Assembly: GCA_029261295.1 (NCBI GenBank)
Contig: JAJDBP010000038.1
Span: 1 to 64,000 of the forward strand
DNA length: 64,000 nucleotides
Reading direction: 5' to 3'
Source: Nitrospirales bacterium
GTDB lineage: Bacteria; Nitrospirota; Nitrospiria; Nitrospirales; UBA8639
Shown here: positions 7,919 through 44,205 of the stretch, piece after piece
How positions within the stretch are numbered: the stretch's first letter is position 1
Layout: every line of letters begins with the position of its first letter
The notes under the pieces: generated by a model
The model's database searches: none
What the model was told of the DNA's origin: nothing
Seen by the model: only the letters and a program-made list of their open reading frames with translations
Program-made: the position numbers and the translations under genes

Positions 7919-8003
7919 TTCACTTCCTCCTTAGTCGCACTGTATTTCATACTACGAACACTGAATTCTTCTGTACTCTGGTTCAATATACCATCCTCTT
8001 TTC

Positions 8004-8042
8004 CCAAAAAAAAACGGGGAAGCCGATAACTCGGCTTCCCCG
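8004..8042 (-). terminator. Rho-independent terminator of the multicopper oxidase gene
   Basis: A perfect 12-bp GC-rich stem (8015-8026 with 8031-8042) with a 4-base loop is followed on the minus strand by nine T. It lies 36 bases past the stop at 8079. Confidence 0.92.
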
Positions 8043-8078
8043 CATAAAACCTCCAGCCTTTGGCAAAATTCCTGGGCG

Positions 8079-11000: not shown

Positions 11001-13214
11001 ACCAGGCTTCGCTGGTTTGACAGAAGTTGTTCCTACATCATTCATATGAATCATTTCCAACCAAGGGGCAGGATTTCTATCAGGAGAAAACGGATTCCGT
11101 TTTCCAAAATGCGGCGTTAACCATGGCCACGCCACTTTCCCAGTCGTTGGTTCAAACCAAATTGGCCTACGTTCACCGGCTTTATAGCCTTGCCATTCGG
11201 GAGTATACTTTGGATTTTCACCCGCAGTGGCTTCTTTCTCACTTACAGCCATATTGCCATCCCAAGCCCAGTCGACCACCGTCGCATCGTAGGATTTGAG
11301 TTGTTCAACATAATCATCTTTATGACCTGGCTTACCACGAGTCGGCAATTGCATTTCCACCCAATCATAAATCGTCGCGATGGCAGGATCAGACTTCCAG
11401 TTGGATTTGCCCTTTTCAATGATTTTGAATTTTTTACCAAACCAATCTACTGTCGTACCAATTAGCTTATCTGATGTCACAGGATTTGGGATCCGTCCAA
11501 TCCGATCAGGCAACTCTCTCATTGGAGCCATGACATCGTTTTTAAAACCTTCAACCTGCATCGTGTTGTAAACACGCCAGTATCCCCACATTCCTGCGAC
11601 ATAATGATGGGCAACATGACAATGGAACAAAAAGTCCCCAGCTAAATATTGACAAAGACCTGAGCCACATTCGGTTTCTAAATCTACGGCTTCTGAGGGT
11701 CCAATGACTTCCACATCAACACGATCTGACTTTGCCCGAATCACAGGAAACTTTTGAGGCCCTTGGCCTTCATGCCACATGGGCATTTGGTCCACTGCTC
11801 TTGGACTACGCGCCCAGCGAATGGAGCCACCATGTGGATGATGGGAATGGAAAACTTCAGATCCACCATGAACCAACCTGAACTTGGCTGGATCACCTAA
11901 ATAGCTCCGTGGAATCGTCGTTGAAGCATCACCAAAGGTGTAAGAGCTATAGGCCATCGATTCATCTTCAAAGCCAAAATATTCATGCTGCACATGCATG
12001 TTATCGATGCCGAATGGCTCACTTCGATAATTCAACGCCCGTGCACCCGGTCGATACGCATCAGTTAAAGGATCCCGTTGCGGCAAGAAGTCGCCATGTT
12101 TATTCACTGGACGGAAAGCCTCATCACCAACTTCGTGATAAATCAACACAAATTCCCGAAAATCTGGGCCGGTACCATTTTTGATAATCGCTTGCCATCC
12201 ACTGGCCATCTTAGGAGCGGGTCCGGTCCCTAGGGGATCTAAAAATTCAGAGCCTTGTGGTTCAACCACAAACACCCCAAACAAGCCCATCACCGTCAAT
12301 TCCCTATCGTTACTGTAGCTATGAAATTGTCGTCCACCTTCTTGCGTGGCCGGATGGATATACCACTCCATTTCGATGACAGGAGATCCTTTAGGTGCAT
12401 CCTCATCATCCTCTTCGGCAACACCCACGGCAATGGAATCCAAATTCGTGGTCGTAGCTGGTTTCCCAGTTTTACTCATCACCATGCTTGACCCATGAAT
12501 ATGCAGGCTGACTTCTTCTCCAAATTCCAAGGCATTCCTAAGTGTAAATTTGACACAATCGCCTTGATTACCTCGGACGACCAAAGGTTGAATCCATTGA
12601 TCTTGGATGCCGTTTTTTACGCCACCTGGATCATGATGTCCTTCTGATTCCCTGGCTTCCGCATTTTTGGCTTCTTCTTCACGAACCTTTTCAAGGTTTT
12701 CTGTCAGGGTATACATATACCCAGGATAGTAATCCAACCATTGATTTAGAGTAATTTCCACGTTAATGGCTGAAATATCGTAATGACGAACTGGAGCGGT
12801 TTTGGGGCACAGACCGCCGCCCTTCATCGCCACGGGCTCCCCTTCTGATTCAGAGGCCAACAAATAGTTGCCCTTCCCAGCACCATATTGGTGCATGGTG
12901 GACATATCGTTATACATGCCTTCACTCGGGGTACCGGCGGTTTCTGTCTCAATTTGCTGCATCATTTTTTCATGTTGTTTTTCAACAAGAGCTGCACGCT
13001 CAGCGCGACCCTCAACAGCATTCTCGATAATAGTTTGCCCTTTGAGCTTTTCAGCCCAAGCTGGCGTGTCCTGATGAGTCATTCCAGTTTTGTGCATCAT
13101 GGCTTCTTGAGATTCCCCGGCCAAGAGAGTCCCAGCGGAAATCAGCGAAATCCCTCCCAGAAATAATCCAAGGGAAAGCGACGTAACGGCATTCCTAGTT
13201 TTCACATAAAACAT
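8079..13214 (-). CDS. Giant secreted multicopper oxidase with inserted LysM domain
   Basis: The 1711-residue protein has a signal peptide (residues ~1-32, ending LLAG). The first ~550 residues form a complete multicopper-oxidase unit: HIHG (238-241), FHSYS (~297), HSHHPHGG (456-463) and HCHVAHH-x4-M (531-542), matching type 1, 2 and 3 copper ligands. A second cupredoxin set follows (HFHFVQFD ~837; FCHDHAFGG ~1038 and PHG ~1050), split by a LysM domain (~941-986, [13 protein letters not shown]). Residues ~1300-1700 keep cupredoxin-like strand patterns but have lost most histidine ligands. Usual family length is 450-700, so this is two to three units joined. LysM implies peptidoglycan or glycan attachment. 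Strong GGAGG before ATG 13214. A role in metal (for example Mn or Cu) oxidation or in respiratory copper chemistry is inference. Confidence 0.88.
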
Positions 13215-29386: not shown

Positions 29387-30340
29387 CTATCGAAAGGCAC
29401 CTTGACGATACAACCGCCAAAACGTCGTGATCCCAGCCCAAATCGGATGTTTCCGTTGCGCCGGAGTTAATTCAACTTTCACCCCGGAATGCCGCTCAAT
29501 TTTCCAAATGAGATAATCGGCTCCACCTTGGAACGTATAGGCCGCCTTCATAAGCCGCAAAATCGACAAGACCTTCCCTTGCACTTTCCGAACAATCCAG
29601 GCTATTCGATTTTTTGTCTTGTTCCATCCGGAAGGTTCTCTCTCATAGAGAGAATAATCGTTCTGCTTAATGACCTTTACCTTTGGGAAATCCGCCGAAA
29701 ACGCTGCATCGGCGACTTGTTCATAATAGGATTGATTACTTTCCCATAATGTTGCAATTCGCCCTTTCGATTCAGCACGTAATTCCGCGCCATAGCTGAG
29801 TGCCAAACCCGTCGCCCATATCTCTTTTGCTGAAAATTTGGCTGGCATTTGCGGAACGACGTTTCCCAAAAAGGTAACCACTGCGTTCCCCAATCCTGAG
29901 ATAATTCGTTGGCTCATTGCTTGGCTCGGGAATGCCATGACAGCTGTGGGCTGGGCAAAGCGCCCCCAAAAGTAGGAATGAAACCATTGAGGAGTCACAC
30001 TTCGCTCAAAATCTTCTAGCGACAAAACCGCATATTTCATACGAACCTTGTGGTCTCCAACAGCAACCTCTCCGTAGAACACATTAGGAGGGAGCCACCC
30101 ATTAAGACGGGCCAGCCAAGTTGACGGATACACGGCCGCATATTGATCCACAATGACATAACAGTCCACCAGACCATTGAGATCCGTGCCCTCTCGCAAA
30201 CACGAACCATAAAGTAAAATTCCTTGAACGGCCTGACCGTATTTATTGGCGAGAAAATTCCCGGCGGCCTGAATAGGGGGAGGAATAGGTTGCGCACTCG
30301 ACTGACTGACGATCGCTAAGACTTCTTCAGAAAGAGCCAT
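29387..30340 (-). CDS. Tam41-like nucleotidyltransferase (CDP-lipid synthase candidate)
   Basis: The 317-residue protein resembles mitochondrial Tam41-type CDP-diacylglycerol synthases: a nucleotidyltransferase GILLYGSCLREG near residue 40 followed by LVDCYVIVD. It also has W..LN......VFYGEV, KYAVLSLEDFERSV and SYFWGRFAQP in the family's order. Bacterial members are often labelled phosphatidate cytidylyltransferase but are unrelated to CdsA. Here it follows a DAG/ceramide-kinase-like gene by two bases, so the pair could phosphorylate a lipid and activate it with CTP. The natural substrate may be phosphatidate or ceramide 1-phosphate. No membrane helix is obvious. The end abuts repeat copy B exactly. 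Confidence 0.65.
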   Translation of the reverse strand: MALSEEVLAIVSQSSAQPIPPPIQAAGNFLANKYGQAVQGILLYGSCLREGTDLNGLVDCYVIVDQYAAVYPSTWLARLNGWLPPNVFYGEVAVGDHKVRMKYAVLSLEDFERSVTPQWFHSYFWGRFAQPTAVMAFPSQAMSQRIISGLGNAVVTFLGNVVPQMPAKFSAKEIWATGLALSYGAELRAESKGRIATLWESNQSYYEQVADAAFSADFPKVKVIKQNDYSLYEREPSGWNKTKNRIAWIVRKVQGKVLSILRLMKAAYTFQGGADYLIWKIERHSGVKVELTPAQRKHPIWAGITTFWRLYRQGAFR

Positions 30341-30342
30341 GA

Positions 30343-31308
30343 CTATTCAGCCTTTAGCCGCACAAAGGAAAGCTCCCCAGGAGAATCGAGGATCAAAGGT
30401 TCATCCGGCTTGGAAGATGTATACACTTCGCCATCTAAAACGAAGCCACTGTCAAAACCCAAGCGTATTTCAGCGTGGTTTTCACTCACATACCCATGAG
30501 CCTCCGTTGCAAGAGAATGCCCAGTGCCACGAAGTATGGCTGGCAAGACCCGCCATAAATATCGATACGGAACGCGAAGGCTGGTAAATCGCAAGGGGCC
30601 AGATTGATTGCCCCAAAATGGCTTCATGCCAAGAAACAAACGATTCAGGGTGGTGACTATGAGCACTAAATACTCATCCTGTGTAGAATTCGCATCTCCC
30701 GTCTTAATAGAAGCTTTAATAGGGTTTAATCCTTTTCGCGACCCTGTTGCCAGCGCCAATAGGAATTTCAACAAAATCAGGCCAGCACCCCACTCCCCTA
30801 ACCGTCCAATTGATTGTTTGGTTTGAAGGCCCATTTGTGTCCCATGGTAAATGGCCCCAGCTCCGAAAAACATCCCGCATAAAGGTTCCCGCTCCTCGGG
30901 AAAACGAATACGAAGAATTGGTCGAGAGACGATAGCAAGTTTCGAAGGAGACGATTCGGCCTCCTCAAGAAATTGTCCAAGGACCTTTGCCTCAAAATTC
31001 CCTAACCCCACATCCCCAGCCATTAAATTCGCTGTCCCTGCAGGTAATAGTGCCAAACTCGGCATTGAGGAAAATGGGTAATGATGAAACAAGGCGCCCA
31101 TGACGGCCTGTATCGTCCCATCGCCTCCATTCACCGCCACACAATCCACTTGAACTTGGGAAAACTTCTTTAAGGCCTCCAGAATGTCTGCAGGCGTTTG
31201 AACCTCAGCACTCGGCACATGGGGATACTGAGAAAGTATGTTTTGGAAAAGATTCGGGTTCCGCCGATTACGACCACTCAGGGGATTATGAAGAATTCCT
31301 ACACGCAT
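30343..31308 (-). CDS. Diacylglycerol/ceramide kinase family protein
   Basis: The 321-residue DAGK-catalytic-domain protein has VNGGDGT near residue 60, PAGTANLMAGD near 90, and a C-terminal beta sandwich with FVLDGEVY. The N-terminal HNPLSGRNRRN matches the family start. Members phosphorylate diacylglycerol, sphingosine or ceramide with ATP; Caulobacter ceramide kinase (CpgB) belongs to this family and is encoded in its sphingolipid locus. Given the ceramide genes here, ceramide is the likely substrate, though this is inference from context. It lies two bases upstream of the Tam41-like gene and is clearly co-translated with it. Confidence 0.75.
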   Translation of the reverse strand: MRVGILHNPLSGRNRRNPNLFQNILSQYPHVPSAEVQTPADILEALKKFSQVQVDCVAVNGGDGTIQAVMGALFHHYPFSSMPSLALLPAGTANLMAGDVGLGNFEAKVLGQFLEEAESSPSKLAIVSRPILRIRFPEEREPLCGMFFGAGAIYHGTQMGLQTKQSIGRLGEWGAGLILLKFLLALATGSRKGLNPIKASIKTGDANSTQDEYLVLIVTTLNRLFLGMKPFWGNQSGPLRFTSLRVPYRYLWRVLPAILRGTGHSLATEAHGYVSENHAEIRLGFDSGFVLDGEVYTSSKPDEPLILDSPGELSFVRLKAE

Positions 31309-31385
31309 GAATGGTCTGGTTCATGAAAACTCAAAAGAGTGCTTTCCCCAATAACTCTCTTCTCTTGATCATTCTAAATATCTTC

Positions 31386-31805
31386 CTAAAAATGCACGAA
31401 AAAGTAATCACTCTTCTTACCTTCATCGATCATATCTACTCTAATGTTCAACAATGTATCTAAAGCGAGATCAAACTGATTTTTGTCCCAATTGAATGTG
31501 GGTTCAATTTTTTCGAATAACTCCTCAGGAGAAAGAATTATTTTATCAATGCTTATAAGACGGTTATCTCGAATAAAACCAACCAAGGCAAGAGTATCTT
31601 CAATATTTGAAAATTTTTGAACTGTCCATTCAATCTCTTGGATTTCCTCCTCTGCCTCATAGTATTCCTCCCCATCATCCGGCCACCCAATTACCGCCCT
31701 TATGGTCGTCTCAGATTCAGCTAAAATGGTAAACCTATTTATTTCAAACAAGATAATAAACTGAAACAGTTGGATCACTGGTGTTGTAAAGAAATTTTGT
31801 CCCAT
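31386..31805 (-). CDS. Hypothetical acidic protein
   Basis: The 139-residue product starts at ATG 31805, which has a GGAAGGAAG just upstream; a TTG five codons earlier is less likely. It is acidic and moderately hydrophobic, with a cluster of E/Y residues (DDGEEYYEAEEEIQEIEW) and no motif, signal or helix that I recognise. It lies between the CDP-alcohol phosphatidyltransferase and the kinase genes on the same strand with gaps of 62 and 77 bp, so it may be co-transcribed with the lipid genes or be a later insertion. Confidence 0.5.
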   Translation of the reverse strand: MGQNFFTTPVIQLFQFIILFEINRFTILAESETTIRAVIGWPDDGEEYYEAEEEIQEIEWTVQKFSNIEDTLALVGFIRDNRLISIDKIILSPEELFEKIEPTFNWDKNQFDLALDTLLNIRVDMIDEGKKSDYFFVHF

Positions 31806-31867
31806 TCTTCCTTCCTTCAAAACTCACTCTTACGTCAAAAAATGATAGAAATTAAGGCGGGAATGAC

Positions 31868-33076
31868 TTATTTAATGGTAGCCGGGGGGTTAGTGAACAC
31901 TTGTACGGCTAAGGAGTCTCGGCCATTCACCGGATCAATTTCGGCCAACCATGAGGTGAGCGATCCTTTTCTGATCTTTTCTACCGCAGCCATCGCTAAT
32001 CTTCCTAAGAGGATCACTGTTGAAAGTATCGTCCAGATGGCTACGGCTTCCAACCCTAGATCTGGTCGCCCCATCAATATACTGGCCGTGAGAAAAATGA
32101 TACACGGATTTCTCCGTGCGGTGATAAGGCGAAAGTAGGAATCAAAAGGCTTCCAACAAAAAATCACGAATCCCGCCAACCACCATTGGAAAATACCCTC
32201 GACAATTCGGCCTAAGATATACCCGATGACAATGACCCAGCAGGTCGTGGTTAAGGTCAAATCTAACAAGACCGGCGAAAAGGAGACGAGGCCCACGCCC
32301 CATGCCAAATACCAGAGTGGAGGATGGATCAAATCGATTCCATGATCAAAAATATTTCCCAACTTCGTTGAAGTGACCGTGACTCTCGCTAATTTTCCAT
32401 CGACTGTATCCAAAAATGTCATCACCCACCCACAGGCAAGACCAAGAGCAAAGTAGCCATAGCTGAATAACATCCCTGCGAGAATCACTAAGGCTAAACT
32501 TAAAGAAGTCACCTGATTGGGTGAAATCCCAGCCATCGCGCACAATCGGGTGGCCCATTGAGCCGGAACTGGCCACCAGAACTTTGTCACGAAATCCGTC
32601 ACACTTTTATAGGATCCAGAAAATAAATGTTGCTCCAAACGCGGTCGGTTGTCCTCACGAATAGGAAAGACATAAGGCAAGTCAGTTTTTCGCAATTCAT
32701 TAGAAAAGGACCCCGAAATATCGTTCATACTGACTCTTCTGACGCTTGGGATGTCGGCAAACTGCTCTGTCTGCATAGTCTCCGAAACAGAACTCGCCTC
32801 TAATGCCGTCACATGCGCCACAACAGGCACAGCACGTCCGCCCATCTCCATTCCCAACATGACATTCTTTTCATTCGACAAACTACGAAACACTCGTTCG
32901 TCATAAATACAGTCTCCGCGAATGATGAGAACGGAACTCTCGGTAGGAATACCCTCTAGTTCGGACACAAACTGATAGTTGCCTATTCGATCCAACATTC
33001 GTCCTAATCGCTCTCGAGAAGTCAAATTCCACAAACGAATATCCGACTCATGACAGATAGACCAATACATACTCAT
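31868..33076 (-). CDS. CDP-alcohol phosphatidyltransferase with N-terminal degenerate nucleotidyltransferase domain
   Basis: The 402-residue protein has, from about residue 165 on, a polytopic CDP-alcohol phosphatidyltransferase domain with the full D-x2-D-G-x2-A-R-x8-G-x3-D-x3-D motif (DTVDGKLAR...FDHGID). Residues ~1-160 resemble the second half of a sugar/inositol-type nucleotidyltransferase (VLIIRGDCIYDERVF, then a central sheet) but the N-terminal G-x-G-x-R loop is missing, so that half is probably inactive. The plan recalls bifunctional IPCT/DIPPS enzymes of thermophiles. It should join an alcohol phosphate or CDP-alcohol to a lipid in the inner membrane. It follows lptG by 53 bp. Confidence 0.8.
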   Translation of the reverse strand: MSMYWSICHESDIRLWNLTSRERLGRMLDRIGNYQFVSELEGIPTESSVLIIRGDCIYDERVFRSLSNEKNVMLGMEMGGRAVPVVAHVTALEASSVSETMQTEQFADIPSVRRVSMNDISGSFSNELRKTDLPYVFPIREDNRPRLEQHLFSGSYKSVTDFVTKFWWPVPAQWATRLCAMAGISPNQVTSLSLALVILAGMLFSYGYFALGLACGWVMTFLDTVDGKLARVTVTSTKLGNIFDHGIDLIHPPLWYLAWGVGLVSFSPVLLDLTLTTTCWVIVIGYILGRIVEGIFQWWLAGFVIFCWKPFDSYFRLITARRNPCIIFLTASILMGRPDLGLEAVAIWTILSTVILLGRLAMAAVEKIRKGSLTSWLAEIDPVNGRDSLAVQVFTNPPATIK

Positions 33077-33129: not shown

Positions 33130-34206
33130 CTACGAAAAGTACATCCACCAAATGATGGCCGTCACCAACACGATTCCGGAGAAGGGAATCATGGTGGTCA
33201 TAAAAGCCGTGGCGCCTAATAAAATTCCTAAATTCTGCAATATTTCTGTGGTGAGATAATACCCAATCCCAACCAAGCCCCCTAAGGCGATCCTCTTTCC
33301 AGCCGACGCACTTCGTAAGGGCCCGAATGCAAAAGGCAAGGCGAGGAGGATCATCAATCCTGTTTTCAATGGCATAAACACCTTATCCCAGAAGGCTAAT
33401 TCATATCTTAGGACATTTTGATTCTTCTGCTGGAGGATTTTAATATAACGAAAAAGGTCAGAAGGGGCGAGAGAAGAAGCCGGCAATGTTAATAACCGCA
33501 TTTCTTCTCGTTTAAAGGGGGAATCCCATACGATACGCTCGACTGCTTCATTTGAAACACGAGGTCCATTGATCACTTTCTTTTGAATATTTTTCAGAAT
33601 CCATTTTTGAGGATTCTCCACGTCAGCTTCTTCGACATACATATACGTGATCATCTCGCCCTTCTGATTGAATTCGAATATATCGATACCTTGGGGAATT
33701 TCTCCATATTTCAATGTCTTGATACGTATATACCGATTCTTCTCTCGAAACCACAGCCCCTGTTTGCCTTGATAGACTTGTGAATCAGATAGCGCCAAGG
33801 AACGTGAAATATGGGCGTACTGATCTAACGTTGGCGTGACATATTCTTCAAAACACGCCACCAGCACCATAAAGACGATTCCCACTTGCATGACCGCCCA
33901 TGCGATCTGGTAATGAGAAATTCCTCCGGCCTGCATGGCCAAAAGTTCTCTGCCATTTGCTAGGCCACCCAAGGCCATAATACTTCCTAACAACGCAATG
34001 AACGGCGCTAGCACCACAAATCGATCTGGCAGGGTCAGGAGCACGAATTCCCCTGCGGCCCAAAAGGTATAACGACCATTCCCAACTTCATCCACTTCTT
34101 CTACAAAGACAAATAAGCTAAACACGGCCAAAAGGATGGCCAAGACGGGCAAATAACCCTTAAGCAAACTTCCCCAAAGATATCGATAAATAATAGGGAT
34201 GCCCAT
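33130..34206 (-). CDS. lptG: LptG-type YjgP/YjgQ permease
   Basis: The 358-residue protein has N-terminal helices, a periplasmic jellyroll-like middle (about residues 125-260) and C-terminal helices, the LptF/LptG plan. ELLAMQAGGISHYQIAW is the cytoplasmic coupling-helix region typical of the family. In LPS export LptF and LptG form the ABC transporter core with LptB2. It lies ten bases after lptF and ahead of the lipid head-group genes, so it may serve a different glycolipid or sphingolipid. Whether this is the cell's only lptFG pair cannot be told from the window. Confidence 0.85.
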   Translation of the reverse strand: MGIPIIYRYLWGSLLKGYLPVLAILLAVFSLFVFVEEVDEVGNGRYTFWAAGEFVLLTLPDRFVVLAPFIALLGSIMALGGLANGRELLAMQAGGISHYQIAWAVMQVGIVFMVLVACFEEYVTPTLDQYAHISRSLALSDSQVYQGKQGLWFREKNRYIRIKTLKYGEIPQGIDIFEFNQKGEMITYMYVEEADVENPQKWILKNIQKKVINGPRVSNEAVERIVWDSPFKREEMRLLTLPASSLAPSDLFRYIKILQQKNQNVLRYELAFWDKVFMPLKTGLMILLALPFAFGPLRSASAGKRIALGGLVGIGYYLTTEILQNLGILLGATAFMTTMIPFSGIVLVTAIIWWMYFS

Positions 34207-34216
34207 ACGTGAGAGC

Positions 34217-35275
34217 TCAGAATTGGCTTCTAGAAAATTTAGGGATCAAGACAAACACACTCACCAGCACTCCTAATCCAATGACCACCCACCAAAGACC
34301 TGGGTAAATGGGAAGCGCGCCTTTTTCCACTAGGTTTTTCACCATTAACCCCAAAAAATAATACACGGCAAAAAGGACCGTTGCGGTTAATATTTTGGCA
34401 TATTTTCCTCCCCGGGGGGACGAGCGACCCAACGGGATGCCTAACAAGCCTAAGAGAATGGTTGAGAATGGCGTTGTCAACCGCCATTGAAGTTCGGCAA
34501 TATATTGTTTCGTGTCAAATGCAGCTAACTCGCGGGTAGGAATGGCTTTTCGTCTGGCATCCTGAATAGCTTCTTCAGGGAAAATAAATAATTTGGCGAA
34601 ATGTGACTTATGGGTGATGGTTCCATTTCGAGTCAATTTATATTCGTAGCCATCGAAGAGCACCGGAATAGCCATCCCGCTTTTAGGATGGAATTGCTCC
34701 CCGGCTTTTTTGGCTGAAATGATCCGCAGCTTATCTCCATGTTCACTTTGAACGAATACCCGATTCAGTTGGCGATTCTGCTGGTCCACCTCCTCAGCAA
34801 AAAGCACAAGTGACCCATCCCGTCGCTCATAGAAATGGCCTGGTTCTAAATGACTGATGCCCAAGCCAGCCTCGGCTTGCGCTTTCACTCGATAACTCTC
34901 TTCATAGGCTAAGGGGCGAAGATACAATGAAAAAAGAGCCACGAGAACGGCTACACATGATGAAAGCAGAAAAATCGCTCCCATTACCCGATAAGGACTC
35001 ATACCGGAAGCCAACATCGCTTTCATCTCCGAGTCCGCATACAACCGTCCCAAGCCAAGAATCACTCCAAAGTACAAAGAAACAGGGAGTAACACCTCCA
35101 ATGCAATGCCAACCTTTAACACAATTAATTTCAACAGCATGGTGGTAGAAAGAAGCGCATCTACGGCTTGGGCTAAAAAGATGATCCAGCTATACCCAGC
35201 AAAGAGGACAACAAAAAGCACACATACCAGAATAGAAGGCTTGAGCACTTCTTGAATGAGATATCGATCTAACAT
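34217..35275 (-). CDS. lptF: LptF-type YjgP/YjgQ permease
   Basis: The 352-residue protein opens with MLDRYLIQEVLKP, the usual LptF amphipathic start. It has GLGRLYADSEMKAMLASGMS (coupling helix, near residue 75), a periplasmic beta domain (~125-260), and RLTTPFSTILLGLLGIPLG in the C-terminal helices. It is the first gene of the operon lptF-lptG-CDP-alcohol transferase and is divergent from the nucleotidyltransferase gene at 35327 with only 51 bp between. Confidence 0.88.
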   Translation of the reverse strand: MLDRYLIQEVLKPSILVCVLFVVLFAGYSWIIFLAQAVDALLSTTMLLKLIVLKVGIALEVLLPVSLYFGVILGLGRLYADSEMKAMLASGMSPYRVMGAIFLLSSCVAVLVALFSLYLRPLAYEESYRVKAQAEAGLGISHLEPGHFYERRDGSLVLFAEEVDQQNRQLNRVFVQSEHGDKLRIISAKKAGEQFHPKSGMAIPVLFDGYEYKLTRNGTITHKSHFAKLFIFPEEAIQDARRKAIPTRELAAFDTKQYIAELQWRLTTPFSTILLGLLGIPLGRSSPRGGKYAKILTATVLFAVYYFLGLMVKNLVEKGALPIYPGLWWVVIGLGVLVSVFVLIPKFSRSQF

Positions 35276-35326: not shown

Positions 35327-36055
35327 ATGAAAGCCATCATCCTCAGCGCTGGACAGGGCAAGCGATTACTTCCGCTCACGCAAGACCGGCCTAAATGTAC
35401 GATTCCTATTCATGGTCGACCGATCCTTGAATGGCAAATCACGGAATTGATTAAGTTTGGCATAAGCCCCATTCATGTGGTTGTCGGATTTGGCGTTGAA
35501 ACCGTAGAAGAGGTTATTGCTCATCACAGCAGCCACCAGGCCGTTCATACTTTGTATAATCCATTTTATGCTCTGGCAGATAATCTTATGAGTTGTTGGA
35601 CTGCCAGAAGCGAAATGACGGAAGACTTTATCTTGCTGAATGGTGATACCGTGTTTGAAACAGCCGTTCTTGAACGGTTGTTTCAGGCTCCGCCAGCACC
35701 AATCACATTAGTCACCGATCAAAAGCCACAATATGATGCTGATGATATGAAAGTAATTGTCCAGGGCACGCAACTCACCAGAATTGGAAAAACTTTACCC
35801 CTAGAATCGGTGAATGGTGAATCCATTGGCATGATACGATTTCAAAACGAAGGACCCCAATTATTTTGTTCGACCATAGAACGCCGTATTCGACAACCTG
35901 AATCGCTCAAGCAATGGTACCTCTCCCTTATCGACGAACTCGCTCCACAGGGACACGTTTCCACTATTTCGATTCAAGGTTTGACATGGGCTGAAATCGA
36001 TAATCCTGATGACTTACAACATGCCGAAACCTTACTCAAACCCTTTGTGCCATAA
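35327..36055 (+). CDS. Cytidylyltransferase-like NTP transferase (LicC/IPCT group)
   Basis: The 242-residue Rossmann-type nucleotidyltransferase has ILSAGQGKRLLPLTQDRPKC at the start, NPFYALADNLMSCW near residue 83 and FILLNGDTVFE near 103. It ends with TWAEIDNPDDL, which supplies the second metal-binding acid. The N-x-x-Y...N-L-x-S block is typical of choline-phosphate (LicC) and inositol-1-phosphate cytidylyltransferases. It may make a CDP-alcohol for the CDP-alcohol phosphatidyltransferase encoded 2 kb away. It is the only plus-strand gene among minus-strand lipid genes. The exact alcohol is unknown. Confidence 0.7.
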   Translation: MKAIILSAGQGKRLLPLTQDRPKCTIPIHGRPILEWQITELIKFGISPIHVVVGFGVETVEEVIAHHSSHQAVHTLYNPFYALADNLMSCWTARSEMTEDFILLNGDTVFETAVLERLFQAPPAPITLVTDQKPQYDADDMKVIVQGTQLTRIGKTLPLESVNGESIGMIRFQNEGPQLFCSTIERRIRQPESLKQWYLSLIDELAPQGHVSTISIQGLTWAEIDNPDDLQHAETLLKPFVP

Positions 36056-36130: not shown

Positions 36131-36964
36131 TTATCCCCGTTGGCCAACAATCTGTTCCACGAGTGCTAAATCTTCCAGAGTGTCCACATCAATGGCAGCC
36201 TCTGGGAAGGGTAGAATAATTTCTTTGATAGAGATATCCATGCGCTGACTGAGTTCGCGAAGGGCATGTGAAAGGGTTAACCTGCCTAGCAAGTAACGAA
36301 TCAGCATGAACCACCCCAGCCGACGAATCAACCGAAAAGGCCTTTTCCGTTCACGTTCAACCTCCGTCCAAAACTCCACCAATTTTTCAGCTTTTGGCGT
36401 GCAAAGTAAGAACAAATTACACCCACAAAATCCCCCTCCTTGAAATCGGATCACGGTACGCTTTGATTGAGGATAAGCCTGAGCCACAACGGAATAGGGG
36501 ACCAAAGCGACTGCCACATCAACTTGGGCTCGATTGGCTTCTCGAAGAAAACCATCTACCATTTCCACCGACAACAACGCATGATCAGCCGTGGTGACCA
36601 AAAGAGGAAGGTCTTGAGGTGACTGTTCGAGAAAACATTTTACACTCAAGCTGGGGCCTTGTTGTGGAGGGACCCAGCGGACTTTTTTTTCTTCCACAAG
36701 ATCATTCAAAAAATCTTGCTCTTGTAGTATTCCCCAAGGAGGGCCACACAAGACCCGTTGCTCAACAAACTTCGACGCTTCAAGGGTATCTAACACTCTC
36801 GTAACCATGGGCATACCACCTACGCTTGCCAATATTTTTATTGGCACTCCCGCACCTTCGGCCACAGCATCCCTCCCCGCTCGTGCGCCAGCTAAGACTA
36901 ATGCGGTGACGAGAGGTTGAGACGTCTCCATCAGTTTTAGTTTTTTCTCTTTTTCTGAGATCAT
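36131..36964 (-). CDS. MobA-like NTP transferase in the sphingolipid locus
   Basis: The 277-residue protein has a MobA-like nucleotide-binding start, LVLAGARAGRDAVAEGAGVP, differing from the MobA L-A-G-G-x-S-x-R-M-G loop. PIKILASVGGMPMV follows, then a metal-binding LLVTTADHALL near residue 130 and a final AAIDVDTLEDL. There is no sign of molybdenum-cofactor genes nearby. Its start overlaps the stop of the bCerS-like gene (ATGA, 36961-36964), so the two are translationally coupled and likely work in one pathway, perhaps on a lipid head group. The reaction is not known to me. Confidence 0.65.
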   Translation of the reverse strand: MISEKEKKLKLMETSQPLVTALVLAGARAGRDAVAEGAGVPIKILASVGGMPMVTRVLDTLEASKFVEQRVLCGPPWGILQEQDFLNDLVEEKKVRWVPPQQGPSLSVKCFLEQSPQDLPLLVTTADHALLSVEMVDGFLREANRAQVDVAVALVPYSVVAQAYPQSKRTVIRFQGGGFCGCNLFLLCTPKAEKLVEFWTEVERERKRPFRLIRRLGWFMLIRYLLGRLTLSHALRELSQRMDISIKEIILPFPEAAIDVDTLEDLALVEQIVGQRG

Positions 36965-38100
36965 TGAAAGGATTTCTCATAGAGACGATATTTTTTATAA
37001 GATTTGGCTCCTAGAGATTCAAGAATATGCCGCATCCGTTTATTATTCTCCAGAATCCAAGAAAGTTCGACCTGTTGAATATGTTTTCGCAAACCTGCCT
37101 TCCTGACGGCTTCAATCATTCCATAGGCCATGAGTGCTCCCATTGGACTGGATTGAAACTGTCGTCGAACTCCCATGAGAGCCACACGCCCAGTTGTTGG
37201 ATAGCGAACCTTTAACCGCCACAGAATTTTGAGCCACCCCAAGGGCCATAATCGTCCTTGAAGATCATGAATGACTTCATGCACATTAGGAAAAGCCACG
37301 AGCATCGCACTTGGGATCCCGTTGACTTCTGCAATTTGCACAAAATCGTCCTCCACCAATAACTTCAATTGCTGACCTAAATCCGCAAATTCAGCTTCCG
37401 TGAAGGGTAAAAATCCCCAATTCTCGGCCCAAGCCTCTTCATAAATTTCTTTGATGATGGCTAATTCTTCCTGCAAATGCTTTCGTCGTAACGGTCGAAT
37501 CTTCACGGATTCCTTGGCCTTTTTCAAAAACCTCGCGACACCTGAAGGAAGTGAAAAATCAATCCCAAGACGATATGCCAGCATATCCTGGACCTTTTGA
37601 TACCCATAGGCTTCAACATGCTTTTTATAGTAGGGGCGAGCATGCCCCATCATCACCATAGGAGGATCATCATATCCCTGAACTAATAACCCACATTCCT
37701 GGTTAATGGATAAATTGAATGGCCCTTGAACAACCTTCATCCCTTCAGATCGAAGCCAGGTTTCGGCGGTTTCAAAAAGAGCGTGAAATATTTCTTCAGA
37801 ATCTTCAGCTTCCAATGATCCAAAAAAACCGGTCGGAGAATCGTAGCGTGCTAGATGCAGCTCATCAATTTGAGCACTAATCCGCCCAACAGGTATTGTC
37901 CCGCGATAGGCCATCCAACATTTCCAGCGTGCATGTTCAAAATAGGGGTTTTTAAGGGAGAAGGAATGGAGCCGTTCAACGAGAAGAGGCGGAACCCAAG
38001 CGGGATCCAATCTATAAATGTTTATTGGTACACGGACAAATTGTTTGAGCCCTGCCTGATCCTTAACCGGTTCAATTCGGATCAAAACGTCTTGTCCCAC
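36961..38100 (-). CDS. bcerS: Bacterial ceramide synthase-like N-acyltransferase (GNAT fold)
   Basis: The 379-residue protein has two GNAT-like halves. Recognisable parts are VPINIYRLDPAWVPPL at the start, GPFNLSINQECGLLVQGYDDPP near residue 135 and an acyltransferase-like C-terminal half ending VELSWILENNKRMRHILESLGA. This architecture belongs to the family that includes bCerS of Caulobacter, which N-acylates a sphingoid base; such proteins are often annotated only as GNAT or hypothetical. The presence of spt, cerR, the carrier protein and the acyl ligase 2-6 kb away supports the assignment. It starts at GTG 38100 with a poor Shine-Dalgarno. It is soluble or peripheral by sequence. Confidence 0.7.
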   Translation of the reverse strand: MGQDVLIRIEPVKDQAGLKQFVRVPINIYRLDPAWVPPLLVERLHSFSLKNPYFEHARWKCWMAYRGTIPVGRISAQIDELHLARYDSPTGFFGSLEAEDSEEIFHALFETAETWLRSEGMKVVQGPFNLSINQECGLLVQGYDDPPMVMMGHARPYYKKHVEAYGYQKVQDMLAYRLGIDFSLPSGVARFLKKAKESVKIRPLRRKHLQEELAIIKEIYEEAWAENWGFLPFTEAEFADLGQQLKLLVEDDFVQIAEVNGIPSAMLVAFPNVHEVIHDLQGRLWPLGWLKILWRLKVRYPTTGRVALMGVRRQFQSSPMGALMAYGMIEAVRKAGLRKHIQQVELSWILENNKRMRHILESLGAKSYKKYRLYEKSFQ

Positions 38101-38186: not shown

Positions 38187-38921
38187 TTACTCTTTTTGTT
38201 CAGAAAGTTGGGCAACCCAAGGGTAATGCAATCGTTCTGCATCCTGATATCCCAAGTTGGATACCGTTTGGCTAACAGGAATTTCCTCCGCGCTCGAATA
38301 CACACTGCCAAAGAGATGATCACAGAGAAGACTCGTGATGCCATAATTTCCTTGTTCATTATGAAAATGATGTAACAAATGATGGCGTTTAATTCGACGC
38401 AAAAATTTGTTTTTGGGGTTCACACGAAGATGTTGCATGCAATGGCACAGCTCATACACCATGAAACATGCTAAGCCTGTCGCAAAAGAGAGTGGAACTC
38501 CTATCCAGCCCGCGATACCTATTCCTATAGGGAATGTCGCAACGACAATGGTAGGTAGGGTCGTTGAGACGGCTCCAAACAACACTCGCAAGTCATTGGG
38601 ATCTTGGTGATGATCATAGTGAATACGCTTCCACAACGCCGCAGTCCAAGGTGACCGATATAAGTATTGCCCATGTAAAATAAATCGGTGAACCACGTAT
38701 TCCACGAACGGGTAAGCCAGCAATGTGACAATGATACTTCCCAGTATTTGAAAGGGAGAAACCAGTGAAAAAGGATATACATATATGGCAACAATGAGGC
38801 TACTGAATAATAAGATGGCATAAACCTGGATACTTGGATATGAGACGTACGCCCACATCAGATCATTAAAAGTCATCCGATCTAAATGATATTTTTCTTG
38901 ATACCACTGACGAGTGAACAC
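38187..38921 (-). CDS. Fatty-acid/ceramide hydroxylase (FA2H/Scs7-like di-iron membrane enzyme)
   Basis: The 244-residue membrane protein has three to four hydrophobic helices and the histidine boxes of the fatty acid hydroxylase superfamily: EYVVHRFILHG near residue 90, HYDHHQDPNDLR near 117, ELCHCMQH near 169 and HHLLHHFHNEQGNYGIT near 195, followed by DHLFGS. The order and spacing are closest to the FA2H/Scs7 group, which 2-hydroxylates the N-acyl chain of ceramides. Its place 86 bp upstream of the bCerS-like gene on the same strand supports ceramide as substrate; sterol or carotenoid hydroxylation is the alternative. GTG 38921 is the start. Confidence 0.78.
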   Translation of the reverse strand: MFTRQWYQEKYHLDRMTFNDLMWAYVSYPSIQVYAILLFSSLIVAIYVYPFSLVSPFQILGSIIVTLLAYPFVEYVVHRFILHGQYLYRSPWTAALWKRIHYDHHQDPNDLRVLFGAVSTTLPTIVVATFPIGIGIAGWIGVPLSFATGLACFMVYELCHCMQHLRVNPKNKFLRRIKRHHLLHHFHNEQGNYGITSLLCDHLFGSVYSSAEEIPVSQTVSNLGYQDAERLHYPWVAQLSEQKE

Positions 38922-39270: not shown

Positions 39271-39705
39271 ATGAACACGACCATGAAAAAATTTGGGTAT
39301 CCTGATTCTTGTGTAAAAGAATTCCAACATTGGGCAATTCTCTTACGGCCTCAACAAGTGACCCTGGGTTCACTAATTTTGATTTGTCGAGAGGATGCGA
39401 CCGCCTTTTCAAAAATCAGTCCTGAAGCATTTACGGAACTACCAGATATCATACGCGAGATGGAGGCGAATGTGACCAACGCCTTTGCCTATACAAAGAT
39501 TAATTATCTCATGTTAATGATGGTTGACCCTGAAGTACATTTTCATGTCATTCCTCGATATGATAGCCCTCGCACCGTTTTTCAACAGCAATTTCTTGAC
39601 CATGGGTGGCCAGGTCCCCCAGATCTCAAAAACTCGAATTCAATATCTCCAGATGTCCAACAAGAAATCTTGGCTCACCTACAGGAAATTTGGTCGTCCA
39701 AATAA
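39271..39705 (+). CDS. HIT-family hydrolase-like protein
   Basis: The 144-residue protein has a HIT domain: HWAILLRPQQVTLGSLILICRED near the N-terminus and DPEVHFHVIPRY near residue 88. The classic H-x-H-x-H triad reads E-V-H-F-H here, so the first histidine is replaced by glutamate while the middle, normally nucleophilic, histidine remains. Relatives hydrolyse dinucleotides or act as nucleotidyl transferases. It lies between the two divergent halves of the sphingolipid locus, pointing toward the acyl ligase gene, but separated from it by 210 bp containing a sigma-54 promoter. Link to lipid synthesis is by position only. Confidence 0.78.
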   Translation: MNTTMKKFGYPDSCVKEFQHWAILLRPQQVTLGSLILICREDATAFSKISPEAFTELPDIIREMEANVTNAFAYTKINYLMLMMVDPEVHFHVIPRYDSPRTVFQQQFLDHGWPGPPDLKNSNSISPDVQQEILAHLQEIWSSK

Positions 39706-39915: not shown

Positions 39916-41706
39916 ATGGCCCTCATAGAAACACCAAATTTAGATATGCTTGCAACACCAACTAACCCTAACGCGCCTCTCCGTCCAGGGAATTTTTCAA
40001 CCCTGTCAGAAGCATTGGATTATGCGGCTTCTGGGGAAACCGGGACCAATTTTTATTCTGGTCGGGGGAATCTCACTCACGTCCTTCCTTATTCAGGGTT
40101 AAAGGAGCAATCCGTCAACCTGGCAAAAAGGCTTCATGGTTTAGGTTTGGCCAGAGGATCTCGTGTCGCCTTAGTTGCCGATACCACCCCAGATTTCTTA
40201 CGATTTTTCTTTGCTTGTCAATATGCAGGGCTTATTCCTGTCCCCTTACCTATATCAATTCATTTAGGTGGCCACCAGGTTTATGTCAACCAGCTCACCC
40301 GATTGCTTGAAAATTGCCAGGCTTCGGTCGCAATGGCCCCCGAGGGATTTGTCCCCTTTCTGGAGGAAGCAAGCACAGAATTAAACCTCCGCCTTATTGG
40401 AGGCCCTGAGACTTTTGCATCCCTAGCAGAGAGTGAATCTCCCCTTCTGCCACTTGAATCCCACGAACTAGCTTATATCCAATACACGTCTGGAAGTACT
40501 CGTTGGCCTAGGGGTGTCGAGGTGACCCAAGCTGCGGTCATGTCCAATTTGTCTGGAATTATCCAACATGGCCTGCAAGTCCAACCTGGAGACCGTTGCG
40601 TTTCCTGGCTTCCCTTTTATCACGACATGGGCTTAGTTGGGTTTGTTCTTGGTCCTATGGCCTCGCAACTCTCTGTTGATTATCTCAGTACAAGAGATTT
40701 TGCTATGCGTCCTCGGCAATGGCTAAAACTGATGACCAAAAGCCAAGCCACGATTTCATTTAGCCCCTCATTTGGTTATGAGCTGTGCGTCAGACGTTTG
40801 CGGGAAGACTCTTCAAATGAATCATACGATCTATCTAACTGGAGAATCGCAGGTGTAGGAGCTGAGACTATTCGGGCAGATAGCCTTGGGCGATTTGCCA
40901 AAGCTCTTGAGCCTTCAGGATTTGGGCCTCAAGCCTTTCTTGCGTGCTACGGGATGGCGGAATGCTCTCTGGCGATTAGCTTTGCTCCTCTTGAAGTTGG
41001 CATTGAAGTTGACCGGGTTAACGCTGATGATCTCTCAAATAATAGGCAAGCCAATCCAATTGATGCCCACGCTCCCGAAGACGAGGTAGACCGCGTGAGC
41101 AAATTTGTAAATTGTGGAGTTCCGCTTCCTGGGTTTGAAGTGGAAATACGGAATGACAAGGGCTCTGCCCTAGGTGATCGGAAAAGTGGAACGATCTTTG
41201 TGCGTGGTACCAGTACCATGGCAGGCTATTTTAACGATCCTGTCCTCACTCAAGATGTACTTTCTGATGATGGATGGCTTAATACCGGAGATATTGGGTA
41301 TTGGGTGGATGGCAGTCTTATAATTATTGGCCGTTCAAAAGATATGATTATCATCAATGGCCGAAATATCTGGCCGCAAGACCTGGAATATTTAGCAGAA
41401 CAACAACCAGAAGTTCGGCCTGGTGACTCGTCTGCATTTTCTGTAACCGGACCGGCTGGAGATGAAGTTGCGGTTATGGTCGTCCAATGTCGCGAAACTA
41501 GCCCTCAAAAACGGGACGATCTCATTCATCGCTTAGGGTCAAGAATTCAAAAAGAACTTACTATCCCTTGTTATATAGAGCTTATTCCACCCCGAACTCT
41601 CCCCCGAACTTCCTCGGGTAAATTATCACGCTCACGTGCCAAATCTGACTTTCTCAAGCGCGTGAAGTGGGAATCCTTGGTGCCGGCCCTTTCTCTTTCT
41701 GCATAA
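39916..41706 (+). CDS. Fatty acyl-AMP ligase (acyl-ACP synthetase of the ceramide operon)
   Basis: The 596-residue adenylate-forming enzyme has an A3 loop YTSGSTRWPRGVEVTQ near residue 190, in which the usual glycine-x-P-K is W-P-R. SWLPFYHDMGLVG is near 233, YGMAECSL near 345, and LNTGDIGYWVDG with ARG-containing GRSKDMIIINGRNIWP lies near 455. The A10 lysine is in RTSSGKLSR. The GRNIWP and overall length match fatty acyl-AMP ligases rather than CoA ligases. It most likely loads a fatty acid onto the acyl carrier protein encoded at 42749 for use by serine palmitoyltransferase. It is the first gene after the sigma-54 promoter; no Shine-Dalgarno is evident. Confidence 0.82.
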   Translation: MALIETPNLDMLATPTNPNAPLRPGNFSTLSEALDYAASGETGTNFYSGRGNLTHVLPYSGLKEQSVNLAKRLHGLGLARGSRVALVADTTPDFLRFFFACQYAGLIPVPLPISIHLGGHQVYVNQLTRLLENCQASVAMAPEGFVPFLEEASTELNLRLIGGPETFASLAESESPLLPLESHELAYIQYTSGSTRWPRGVEVTQAAVMSNLSGIIQHGLQVQPGDRCVSWLPFYHDMGLVGFVLGPMASQLSVDYLSTRDFAMRPRQWLKLMTKSQATISFSPSFGYELCVRRLREDSSNESYDLSNWRIAGVGAETIRADSLGRFAKALEPSGFGPQAFLACYGMAECSLAISFAPLEVGIEVDRVNADDLSNNRQANPIDAHAPEDEVDRVSKFVNCGVPLPGFEVEIRNDKGSALGDRKSGTIFVRGTSTMAGYFNDPVLTQDVLSDDGWLNTGDIGYWVDGSLIIIGRSKDMIIINGRNIWPQDLEYLAEQQPEVRPGDSSAFSVTGPAGDEVAVMVVQCRETSPQKRDDLIHRLGSRIQKELTIPCYIELIPPRTLPRTSSGKLSRSRAKSDFLKRVKWESLVPALSLSA

Positions 41707-41754: not shown

Positions 41755-42699
41755 ATGCCAACTTCGGTTGCCCTTACTGGAGCTTCAGGTTTTATCGGCC
41801 ACGCAATTGCTCTTCGTCTGTGCCAAGCAGGATTGAAGGTGAGGGGATTGGTTCGGTCCTCGAGAATAATTCCAAGTCTTGATCATTCCAATTTTACTCT
41901 CATTCCTGGAGACCTCCATAACATTGAAAGTCTGAAAAAATTGGTCCAGGGGTGTACTAGTGTTGTTCATTGCGCTGGCACAGTTCGCGGATCAAAGAGA
42001 ATAGATTTTATTCCATCAAATATCCAGGGAGTGGCTAATATTCTTAGGGTCTGTGGTTCTCAACCCTCTCCTCCTCGAATCATTCACTTTTCCTCTCTTG
42101 CCGCAAGGGAACCCTCCCTTTCCCCCTATGCCTGGAGTAAACGGGAAGGAGAACTCCTTATCCAACAAGAGGGGGAATCCTTACATTGGATCATCGTACG
42201 CCCCCCTGCCGTGTATGGGCCAAAGGATAAGGCCTTACGCCCCCTATTCCAATTAGGAAAAAAAGGAATCGCCTTACACCTTGGATCTAAAAATGGTAAA
42301 TTTTCCCTTATCCATGTAGAAGATTTGACTGAGGTCATTCTACGCGCACTTGAGCGAAACACTATTCGCTCAGCTATTTTTGAAGTTGATGACGGTTTTC
42401 CGAATGGATATTCCTGGAAATCTGTTTTTCAGGTGATTAACCCAGAGATAAAAATACACGTGAGAGTTCCACGAAGATTTCTATGGCTAATTGGAAAAAG
42501 TAATGAAATATTATCTCGTGTTTTTGGCTATATGCCTCTATTTACAACAGGAAAGGTTGCAGAATTAGGTCATGTGAATTGGGTTTCCGACTCAGAGGAT
42601 GCCCGCCAGCAACTTGGCTGGAGTCCACAGATTCCCTTAGAGGAAGGCTTGCGCCATCTCTTTACATCGGATAGTCTCATGCTAAGGACGAAGGATTAG
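41755..42699 (+). CDS. cerR: NAD(P)-dependent epimerase/dehydratase-family reductase, CerR-like
   Basis: The 314-residue extended-SDR protein has a nucleotide-binding TGASGFIGHAIALRL at residue 7, VVHCAGTVRG near 70 and the catalytic Y-A-W-S-K near 130, followed by IIVRPPAVYGPKDKALRP. In Caulobacter, CerR of this family reduces the 3-keto group of the ceramide intermediate, and its gene lies beside spt. The same neighbourhood here supports that role. Sugar-nucleotide epimerase is the alternative but less likely by context. It lies 48 bp after the ligase gene. Confidence 0.78.
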   Translation: MPTSVALTGASGFIGHAIALRLCQAGLKVRGLVRSSRIIPSLDHSNFTLIPGDLHNIESLKKLVQGCTSVVHCAGTVRGSKRIDFIPSNIQGVANILRVCGSQPSPPRIIHFSSLAAREPSLSPYAWSKREGELLIQQEGESLHWIIVRPPAVYGPKDKALRPLFQLGKKGIALHLGSKNGKFSLIHVEDLTEVILRALERNTIRSAIFEVDDGFPNGYSWKSVFQVINPEIKIHVRVPRRFLWLIGKSNEILSRVFGYMPLFTTGKVAELGHVNWVSDSEDARQQLGWSPQIPLEEGLRHLFTSDSLMLRTKD

Positions 42700-42748: not shown

Positions 42749-42994
42749 ATGACGACCTATCCTGACATTTTGCCGCAATTGCTTGAAACCCTGAAGCCCT
42801 ATGCTAAAAAGATTGGAACGCTAAAGGAAACCACCGATCTAGTATCAGAATTGGGGCTAGACTCTCTCCAAGTTATGCAGGTGTTGCTCAAAATTGAAGA
42901 CCAGTTTGATATCTCCATTCCATTAAATAACTTGCCCAATATCCGCACCGTTAAAGATCTTGGAATGGAAATTGAGATGTTGTTGAAAGCATAA
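42749..42994 (+). CDS. Acyl carrier protein of the ceramide operon
   Basis: The 81-residue protein has the phosphopantetheine site L-G-L-D-S-L-Q-V near residue 38 and the four-helix carrier pattern (FDISIPLNNLPNIRTVKDLG). It lies two bases before spt and 49 bp after cerR. A dedicated carrier beside spt is characteristic of bacterial ceramide loci, where it delivers the acyl group to serine palmitoyltransferase. It is clearly not the fatty-acid-synthesis AcpP, whose neighbourhood is different. Confidence 0.9.
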   Translation: MTTYPDILPQLLETLKPYAKKIGTLKETTDLVSELGLDSLQVMQVLLKIEDQFDISIPLNNLPNIRTVKDLGMEIEMLLKA

Positions 42995-42996
42995 AT

Positions 42997-44205
42997 ATGT
43001 CATTATTTAGTAAATTTCTGTCTATACAACAAGCCCGTGAGGAGATTTTACAAAGTGGCATCAATCCGTTTCATCTCACCATCGAAAAAATCAATTCTCC
43101 CACCGAAGGGGTGATTAATGGACGCCAAACTATTCTCGTTGGCACCAATAATTACTTAGGCCTGACGTTTCATCCAGACTGCATTCAAGCGGGACAAGAA
43201 GCTATAGCACAAGAAGGAACGGGTACTACCGGGTCTAGAATGGCCAATGGTTCATTTTCGAGTCACAACGATCTTGAACGAGCCATCGCAGATTTTTACG
43301 GAATGCCACATGCCATCGTCTTTTCCACTGGGTATCAAGCTAATTTGGGGGTTCTTTCTGCATTGGCTGGGCCTGGGGATACCATATTGATGGATGGAGA
43401 TTCGCATGCCAGCATCTATGATGGTTGCCGACTAGGAGGGGCGGAAGTTCTTCGATTTAAACATAATGATGTTCCTGATTTAGAGAAAAAGTTGCGTCGC
43501 TTGGGTAATCGAAGTCAACGAACTCTCGTTATCGTTGAAGGCATTTACAGTATGTTGGGCGATCGGGCCCCTCTTAAAGAAATTGTAGAGATCAAACTCA
43601 AATATGGAGCAACCCTAGTCGTTGATGAAGCCCACTCACTAGGAGTTCTAGGAAAACGAGGGCGAGGCTTAGCTGAAGAGGTGGGGGTCGAAGAAGGAGT
43701 CGATTGTATTGTGGGCACCTTTAGTAAAAGCCTAGGTTCTACCGGAGGATTCGGCGTCAGCATACATCCTGAATTTGAATTTATTCGCTATACCAGTCGC
43801 CCTTATATTTTTACTGCATCTCCTTGTCCATCCGTCGTCGCATCAACAAAAGTTTCCCTAAGAATTATTCGCGAAACTCCGCAACTCAGGAAACAATTAT
43901 GGGAGAATGCCCAAACCTTATATGATGGATTACAGAAAATTGGGTATACCCTTGGAGCAGAGGTGGGCCCCGTTATCGCAGCCATGATCCCATCAAAAGA
44001 ACAGGCCCTAGGGATGTGGCAAGGGCTCTTAGAACAAGGCATTTATGTGAATCTGATGATCCCCCCCGCGACACCAAATGGCGAAAGCCTCTTACGATGT
44101 AGTGTGAGCGCTGCCCATACCCCCAAACAACTTGAAACCATTATTCAATGCTTTGCGAACGTGCATTCCTCGCTAAAGGAACAGACTCCATCTCTCCAAA
44201 CGTAG
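42997..44205 (+). CDS. spt: Serine palmitoyltransferase
   Basis: The 402-residue alpha-oxoamine synthase has NNYLGLTFHP near residue 50, TGTTGSRMANGSFSSHNDLE near 77, VFSTGYQANLG near 110, DGDSHASIYDG near 130, VVDEAHSLGVLG near 208 and the PLP lysine in GTFSKSLGSTGG near 247. Members comprise SPT, KBL, ALAS and BioF; the preceding dedicated carrier protein, reductase and ligase point to SPT, which condenses serine with an acyl thioester to 3-ketosphinganine in the cytoplasm. Length is right for the soluble homodimeric bacterial enzyme. Confidence 0.88.
   Translation: MSLFSKFLSIQQAREEILQSGINPFHLTIEKINSPTEGVINGRQTILVGTNNYLGLTFHPDCIQAGQEAIAQEGTGTTGSRMANGSFSSHNDLERAIADFYGMPHAIVFSTGYQANLGVLSALAGPGDTILMDGDSHASIYDGCRLGGAEVLRFKHNDVPDLEKKLRRLGNRSQRTLVIVEGIYSMLGDRAPLKEIVEIKLKYGATLVVDEAHSLGVLGKRGRGLAEEVGVEEGVDCIVGTFSKSLGSTGGFGVSIHPEFEFIRYTSRPYIFTASPCPSVVASTKVSLRIIRETPQLRKQLWENAQTLYDGLQKIGYTLGAEVGPVIAAMIPSKEQALGMWQGLLEQGIYVNLMIPPATPNGESLLRCSVSAAHTPKQLETIIQCFANVHSSLKEQTPSLQT

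Follow-up and report, generated by a model that had tools for sequence, protein, structure and literature searches.

A 64,000-nucleotide stretch of DNA from a Nitrospirales bacterium (positions 1 to 64,000 of contig JAJDBP010000038.1, assembly GCA_029261295.1; here called the window), whose genome is 4.06 Mb, probably carries a Caulobacter-type cluster for ceramide (di)phosphoglycerate, consisting of a core module for ceramide phosphoglycerate (CPG) and an extension module for ceramide diphosphoglycerate (CPG2). It is a known kind of cluster found in a new phylum, and it crosses phyla. It includes three open reading frames (ORFs) on the reverse strand, which encode a Tam41-like protein homologous to CpgC (29387-30340), a lipid kinase homologous to CpgB (30343-31308), and a CDP-alcohol transferase homologous to CpgA (31868-33076). 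Their Pfam matches (Tam41_Mmp37, DAGK_cat, and CDP-OH_P_transf, respectively) agree with the original prediction, which had joined them in a chain from ceramide through ceramide 1-phosphate (C1P) and CDP-ceramide to head-group exchange. The first two steps of that chain are plausible, although the idea itself is not original; the third is probably wrong. Olea-Ozuna et al. (PMC11324152, 2024) suggested that CC_1161 (CpgC), which has a CDP-diacylglycerol (CDP-DAG) synthase InterPro domain, forms an NDP-activated ceramide, so the idea of CDP-ceramide has a precedent in print; in the literature searched we found the term "NDP-activated ceramide" but not "CDP-ceramide".

In the proposed pathway, serine palmitoyltransferase (SPT), an acyl carrier protein (ACP), a fatty acyl-AMP ligase (FAAL), CerR, and CerS would make ceramide, which the kinase would phosphorylate. 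The Tam41-like protein would act on C1P, most likely forming CDP-ceramide by the transfer of CMP from CTP, and (phospho)glycerate would displace the CMP to furnish CPG. For the extension, the product of the divergently transcribed CpgD gene (35327-36055, forward strand) would make CDP-glycerate, from which CpgA would move phosphoglycerate onto the first head group. LptF2 and LptG2 probably export the lipid. What we computed are homology, fold, residue conservation, the order of the genes, and a joint inheritance that CpgA shares with CpgD and not with CpgC; we infer the CDP-ceramide step, which taken alone stands at roughly even odds, and CDP-glycerate as the donor of CpgA.

Comparison with the Caulobacter CPG/CPG2 cluster

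The Caulobacter locus was located with the published primers for ccna_01210 (cpgD) (PMC12275187), which picked three genomes, one of them with five of the eight primers correctly arranged. The locus in that genome comprises 14 genes, whose order matches the published CC_1152-CC_1165 (PMC11324152), and its naming as Caulobacter rests on the primers and this gene order. Within 15 kb, the window contains counterparts of the Caulobacter crescentus SPT, ACP, CerR, FAAL, CerS, LptF2/G2, HIT, CC_1153, and CpgA-D proteins; for the main enzymes the pairwise E-values lie between 2e-26 and 8e-168. In blastp comparisons CpgD is the most similar of the four Cpg proteins (52%, 1e-79), followed by CpgA (41%, 1e-91), CpgC (33%, 2e-44), and CpgB (30%, 2e-26), and the LptF/G proteins match at 21-26%. 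The window cluster differs in belonging to the Nitrospirota rather than the Pseudomonadota, in its gene order, and in having an internal fatty-acid hydroxylase gene and an additional 144-aa ORF.

Genetic work in Caulobacter showed that cpgB and cpgC mutants lose CPG, whereas cpgA and cpgD mutants lose CPG2 only (PMC11324152). Caulobacter CpgB is a ceramide kinase that phosphorylates diacylglycerol (DAG) in vitro as well. CpgC was still uncharacterised in the literature as of May 2026.

The kinase and the Tam41-like protein

The kinase (DAGK_cat, 2.4e-16) contains a GGDGT motif and scores 33 bits against the YegS-family cut-off of 118.65, far below it. Its gene ends 2 bp upstream of the Tam41-like gene on the same strand, as had been predicted. 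Among related loci with enough contig upstream, 69 of 74 have a kinase gene directly upstream of the Tam41-like gene and on the same strand, and the pairing exceeds chance across the Nitrospirota, Desulfobacterota, and Pseudomonadota from which these loci come. The predicted membership in one operon is not shown for the transferase gene, which lies upstream of the kinase, is transcribed first, and is separated from it by 559 bp holding the 144-aa ORF (31386-31820, reverse strand). In close relatives this gap is about 110 bp. The ORF is acidic and without a Pfam match, and none of the first 84 related loci has a homologue of it; it looks like a recent insertion and is probably outside the pathway.

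The Tam41-like protein matches PF09139 marginally (24.2 bits against a gathering cut-off of 24), and its Caulobacter homologue falls below the cut-off. As a genome-wide probe PF09139 is unfit, missing both the window gene and that of Caulobacter, and our own alignments were used instead. The AlphaFold model (pLDDT 82.8) contains both Tam41 domains, the nucleotidyltransferase and the winged helix, and aligns over 221-232 residues with the Tam41/TAMM41 CDP-DAG synthases 7ecd, 6ig4, and 6ig2 (VIA-align Z 18.3, 17.4, and 16.5), the next unrelated fold reaching a Z of only 6.7. In addition, a profile built from relatives of the protein finds 6ig2 at 1.6e-6. Residues invariant over 65 relatives include Y44-G45-S46, D59, K102, W125, R127, and Q130. 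The strand motif has a single acid, D59, with Y61 at its second position, and Tam41 likewise has one of the three acids typical for the nucleotidyltransferase fold (PMC11646218). The likeness to the solved synthases extends over the fold, the single strand-motif acid, and the K-Y and R-F-x-x-P motifs. However, identity to them is 14-16%, and the protein considered here is encoded among sphingolipid genes, next to a homologue of ceramide kinase, in a genome that has CdsA. Tam41 proteins have a membrane-binding helix at the C-terminus; here helices are predicted for residues 241-312, with a pLDDT of about 52-62 for the part that starts at residue 271. Judged by sequence and model, the assignment to the Tam41 family is good for the fold and the active-site layout.

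The original prediction had allowed that, in a genome missing CdsA, this gene would be the general CDP-DAG synthase. As CdsA is encoded elsewhere in the genome, together with PssA and PgsA (one clear and one borderline), we rejected this role for the Tam41-like protein. An IPCT-DIPPS-like protein is also encoded outside the window. The conversion of C1P to CDP-ceramide is the most economical guess for the activity of the Tam41-like protein. The predicted CDP-ceramide route is thus retained as far as the sphingolipid context, the CpgB homologue, and a Tam41-fold cytidylyltransferase other than the general CDP-DAG synthase are concerned, but not in the transferase that was to consume CDP-ceramide.

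Inheritance and specificity of CpgA and CpgD

The CpgA homologue (PF01066, 5.4e-8) joins a cytidylyltransferase-like N-terminal domain to a CDP-alcohol phosphotransferase domain, and the motif D-x2-DG-x2-AR-x8-G-x3-D-x3-D is intact at residues 223-248. Over both domains its model is similar to AF2299 (Z 22.5) and IPCT-DIPPS (Z 20.7), which have the same domain fusion (4o6n, 4mnd); the solved sequences closest to it are CEPT1/CHPT1. In contrast to AF2299 and IPCT-DIPPS, to which it is 12-18% identical, the N-terminal domain of CpgA looks degenerate, with a separate CpgD as the cytidylyltransferase. The pairing of a soluble CDP-head-group maker with a lipid-acting CDP-alcohol transferase has also been proposed for the alternative inositol-lipid cluster of Bacteroides (an NTP transferase, a CDP-alcohol transferase, and a HAD protein; PMC9246714), although the head group there is inositol rather than glycerate and the accessible part of that source mentions no Tam41-like protein.

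Among 48 genomes with the Tam41-like gene, a full-length CpgA and a high-scoring CpgD are both present in 27 and both absent from 21, and in no genome does one occur alone. Presence was called from the best match (CpgA, above 300 bits versus below 55; CpgD, above 190 versus below 145), with thresholds placed at the gap between the score groups. In the tree of the Tam41-like proteins, supported branches show at least six switches in the presence of the two, each of them joint (sign test p 0.03, with just six independent pairs). Because CpgD is distant from CpgA or on a different contig in several genomes (G026, G119, G336, G430, and G442), linkage alone does not account for the pairing. This joint inheritance, together with the frequent absence of CpgA beside the Tam41-like gene, suggests that the transferase belongs to CpgD and not to the Tam41-like protein, and the transferase was rejected as an obligatory partner of the latter. 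Head-group exchange on CDP-ceramide by the neighbouring transferase, as originally predicted, is not supported, since its counterpart CpgA is placed at the step from CPG to CPG2 by Caulobacter genetics and pairs with CpgD without exception.

Caulobacter CpgD makes CDP-glycerate (PMC12275187). In the window CpgD, all nine of the catalytic and glycerate-contacting residues given in a preprint (PMC13228409) are kept (R16, K26, N90, N110, D112, M147, K161, S170, and W201), whereas five of these positions carry other residues (S, D, C, G, and E) in the closest paralogue from this genome. The nine residues make phosphoglycerate the expected head group of this Nitrospirales lipid, and the CpgA homologue most likely uses CDP-glycerate to add a second one.

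Two further arrangements of such genes were observed. Elsewhere in the genome of the window, the IPCT-DIPPS-like CDP-alcohol transferase adjoins the CpgD paralogue with different specificity residues (L194, G000:C35:86000-91000), forming a second soluble CDP-alcohol system. In the Nitrospirales NPIRA01 and NPIRA04 (loci L031, at 7722-8948 and 11161-12399, L032, and L033), CpgA-like copies flank the kinase/Tam41-like pair on either side, possibly for a longer or a second head group.

Candidate consumers of CDP-ceramide and alternative readings

Several observations weigh against the pathway as set out above. A phosphoesterase of the CC_1158 type is absent at the locus (no such ORF at 22-40 kb; the rest of the genome was not searched), although CC_1158 is non-essential in Caulobacter and other predicted CPG2 makers are without it. 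No activity of a CpgC-family protein is reported in the papers found, and, given the DAG activity of Caulobacter CpgB in vitro, phosphatidate could also be a substrate of the Tam41-like protein. Finally, no dedicated enzyme using CDP-ceramide was found: in five of the eight CpgA-lacking genomes searched, the CDP-alcohol transferases are limited to one of the PgsA type and one of the PssA type (with an NCBIfam check in three). A screen of CpgA-lacking loci for a conserved extra gene beside the kinase and Tam41-like genes gave no candidate transferase; most of the clusters obtained consisted of shadow ORFs from GC-rich genomes, and DUF2141, an ABC transporter, and an acyltransferase also came up. 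From the five genomes with just PgsA and PssA types it follows that the consumer of any CDP-ceramide would be PgsA or PssA, CpgC itself, or a protein with a different fold. We tentatively propose, at somewhat below even odds, that the CpgC family, including the protein in the window, represents the first CDP-ceramide synthase, a Tam41 fold re-purposed from phosphatidate to C1P, and that, where only PgsA and PssA exist, these housekeeping phospholipid enzymes use CDP-ceramide to make sphingolipid head groups.

The same five genomes, which offer no dedicated CDP-alcohol-transferase consumer, are also compatible with a pathway that has no free CDP-ceramide. Here the Tam41-like protein would itself join C1P and glycerate, by nucleotidylation followed by condensation within a single active site, or would activate another partner with the aid of the CofC-like NTP transferase, whose gene is kept in 13 related loci without CpgA. 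We consider this unlikely, as the protein folds like a simple CTP:phosphatidate cytidylyltransferase, CDP-ceramide could be accepted by the housekeeping PgsA or PssA, and the Caulobacter CC_1153 mutant still makes CPG (PMC11324152).

In a second alternative, the Tam41-like protein would work alongside CdsA as a dedicated CDP-DAG synthase, supplied by the kinase with phosphatidate from DAG. A Tam41 of the same fold from Firmicutes does make CDP-DAG (PMC11646218), and CpgB can phosphorylate DAG in vitro. However, with CdsA already present in the genome and the Tam41-like gene linked to sphingolipid genes across phyla, this is improbable, all the more so as deletion of cpgB in Caulobacter leaves the levels of phosphatidate unchanged and CPG formation needs cpgC.

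A linear chain, in which the kinase forms C1P, the Tam41-like protein CDP-ceramide, and the neighbouring transferase exchanges CMP for the head group, has equally little to recommend it: although the three genes lie near one another, users of CDP-lipids (PgsA, PIP synthase) belong to the transferase superfamily, and copies of the transferase stand on both sides of the gene pair in L031-L033, the transferase is missing from 21 of the 48 genomes and always accompanies CpgD, Caulobacter makes CPG without CpgA (PMC11324152), the solved sequences nearest to it are CDP-choline/ethanolamine transferases, and the closest two-domain architectures include IPCT-DIPPS, a user of a soluble CDP-alcohol.

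Other genes of the cluster and related loci

All five ceramide genes are present in the window. CerS, the bacterial ceramide synthase homologue (CC_1154; 36961-38100, reverse strand), is 42% identical to the Caulobacter protein (2e-104). The other four are on the forward strand, namely the FAAL gene aasR (39916-41706; NF006624 785 bits, cut-off 600; 43%), the ceramide reductase gene cerR (41755-42699; 31%, 4e-33), acpR (42749-42994; PP-binding 2.5e-10; 38% over 47 aa), and spt (42997-44205; NF047599 626 bits, cut-off 500; 57%, 8e-168). The fatty-acid hydroxylase (38187-38921, reverse strand; PF04116 4e-21), with homologues in 15 related loci, probably acts on ceramide.

The LptG2-type (33130-34206) and LptF2-type (34217-35275) permeases, both on the reverse strand, match PF03739 with 215 and 208 bits. 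A second, higher-scoring LptF/LptG pair is found on contig C22, and LpxC likewise lies outside the window; the pair in the window is therefore an extra one, as in Caulobacter. The CofC-like NTP transferase (36131-36964, reverse strand; PF12804 9e-13) is a homologue of CC_1153 (37%, 6e-39). Its occurrence in the 13 related loci with no CpgA nearby fits poorly with the role proposed for CC_1153 if this is limited to the conversion of CPG to CPG2. The HIT protein (39271-39705, forward strand; PF01230 marginally above cut-off) occupies the position of CC_1157 (44%, 3e-44). Although CC_1157 was called unrelated, the gene keeps its place next to the cluster in Nitrospirales as well as in Caulobacter, Roseomonas, and Diaphorobacter, and its product may have a role.

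Phosphosphingolipid genes were also seen on plasmids (L097-L100), where the Tam41-like gene is annotated as "hypothetical protein". These loci come from Pseudomonas sp. JS425, from Roseomonas, from Diaphorobacter (a conjugative IncP plasmid that encodes two CDP-alcohol transferases), and from Qipengyuania, in which the kinase and Tam41-like genes stand alone. In the Pseudomonadota, a DUF2141-like protein (L135, 7761-8345, and about 25 other loci) is often encoded near this pair.

Implications for bacterial sphingolipid synthesis

How head groups are attached is understood less well than any other part of bacterial sphingolipid synthesis, and the step left open by the papers of 2025-2026 is that of CpgC. 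Our analysis splits the pathway into a constant core of kinase and Tam41-like protein and an optional extension of CpgD and CpgA, and in several genomes any CDP-ceramide must be used by PgsA, by PssA, or by some other kind of protein. It also extends the range of the cluster to the Nitrospirota and Desulfobacterota; our search found no papers on sphingolipids in Nitrospira. In Caulobacter, these lipids permit survival without lipopolysaccharide and set the sensitivity to polymyxin. Given these roles, the cluster may be a marker, among environmental bacteria, of outer membranes that bear an unusual charge layer.

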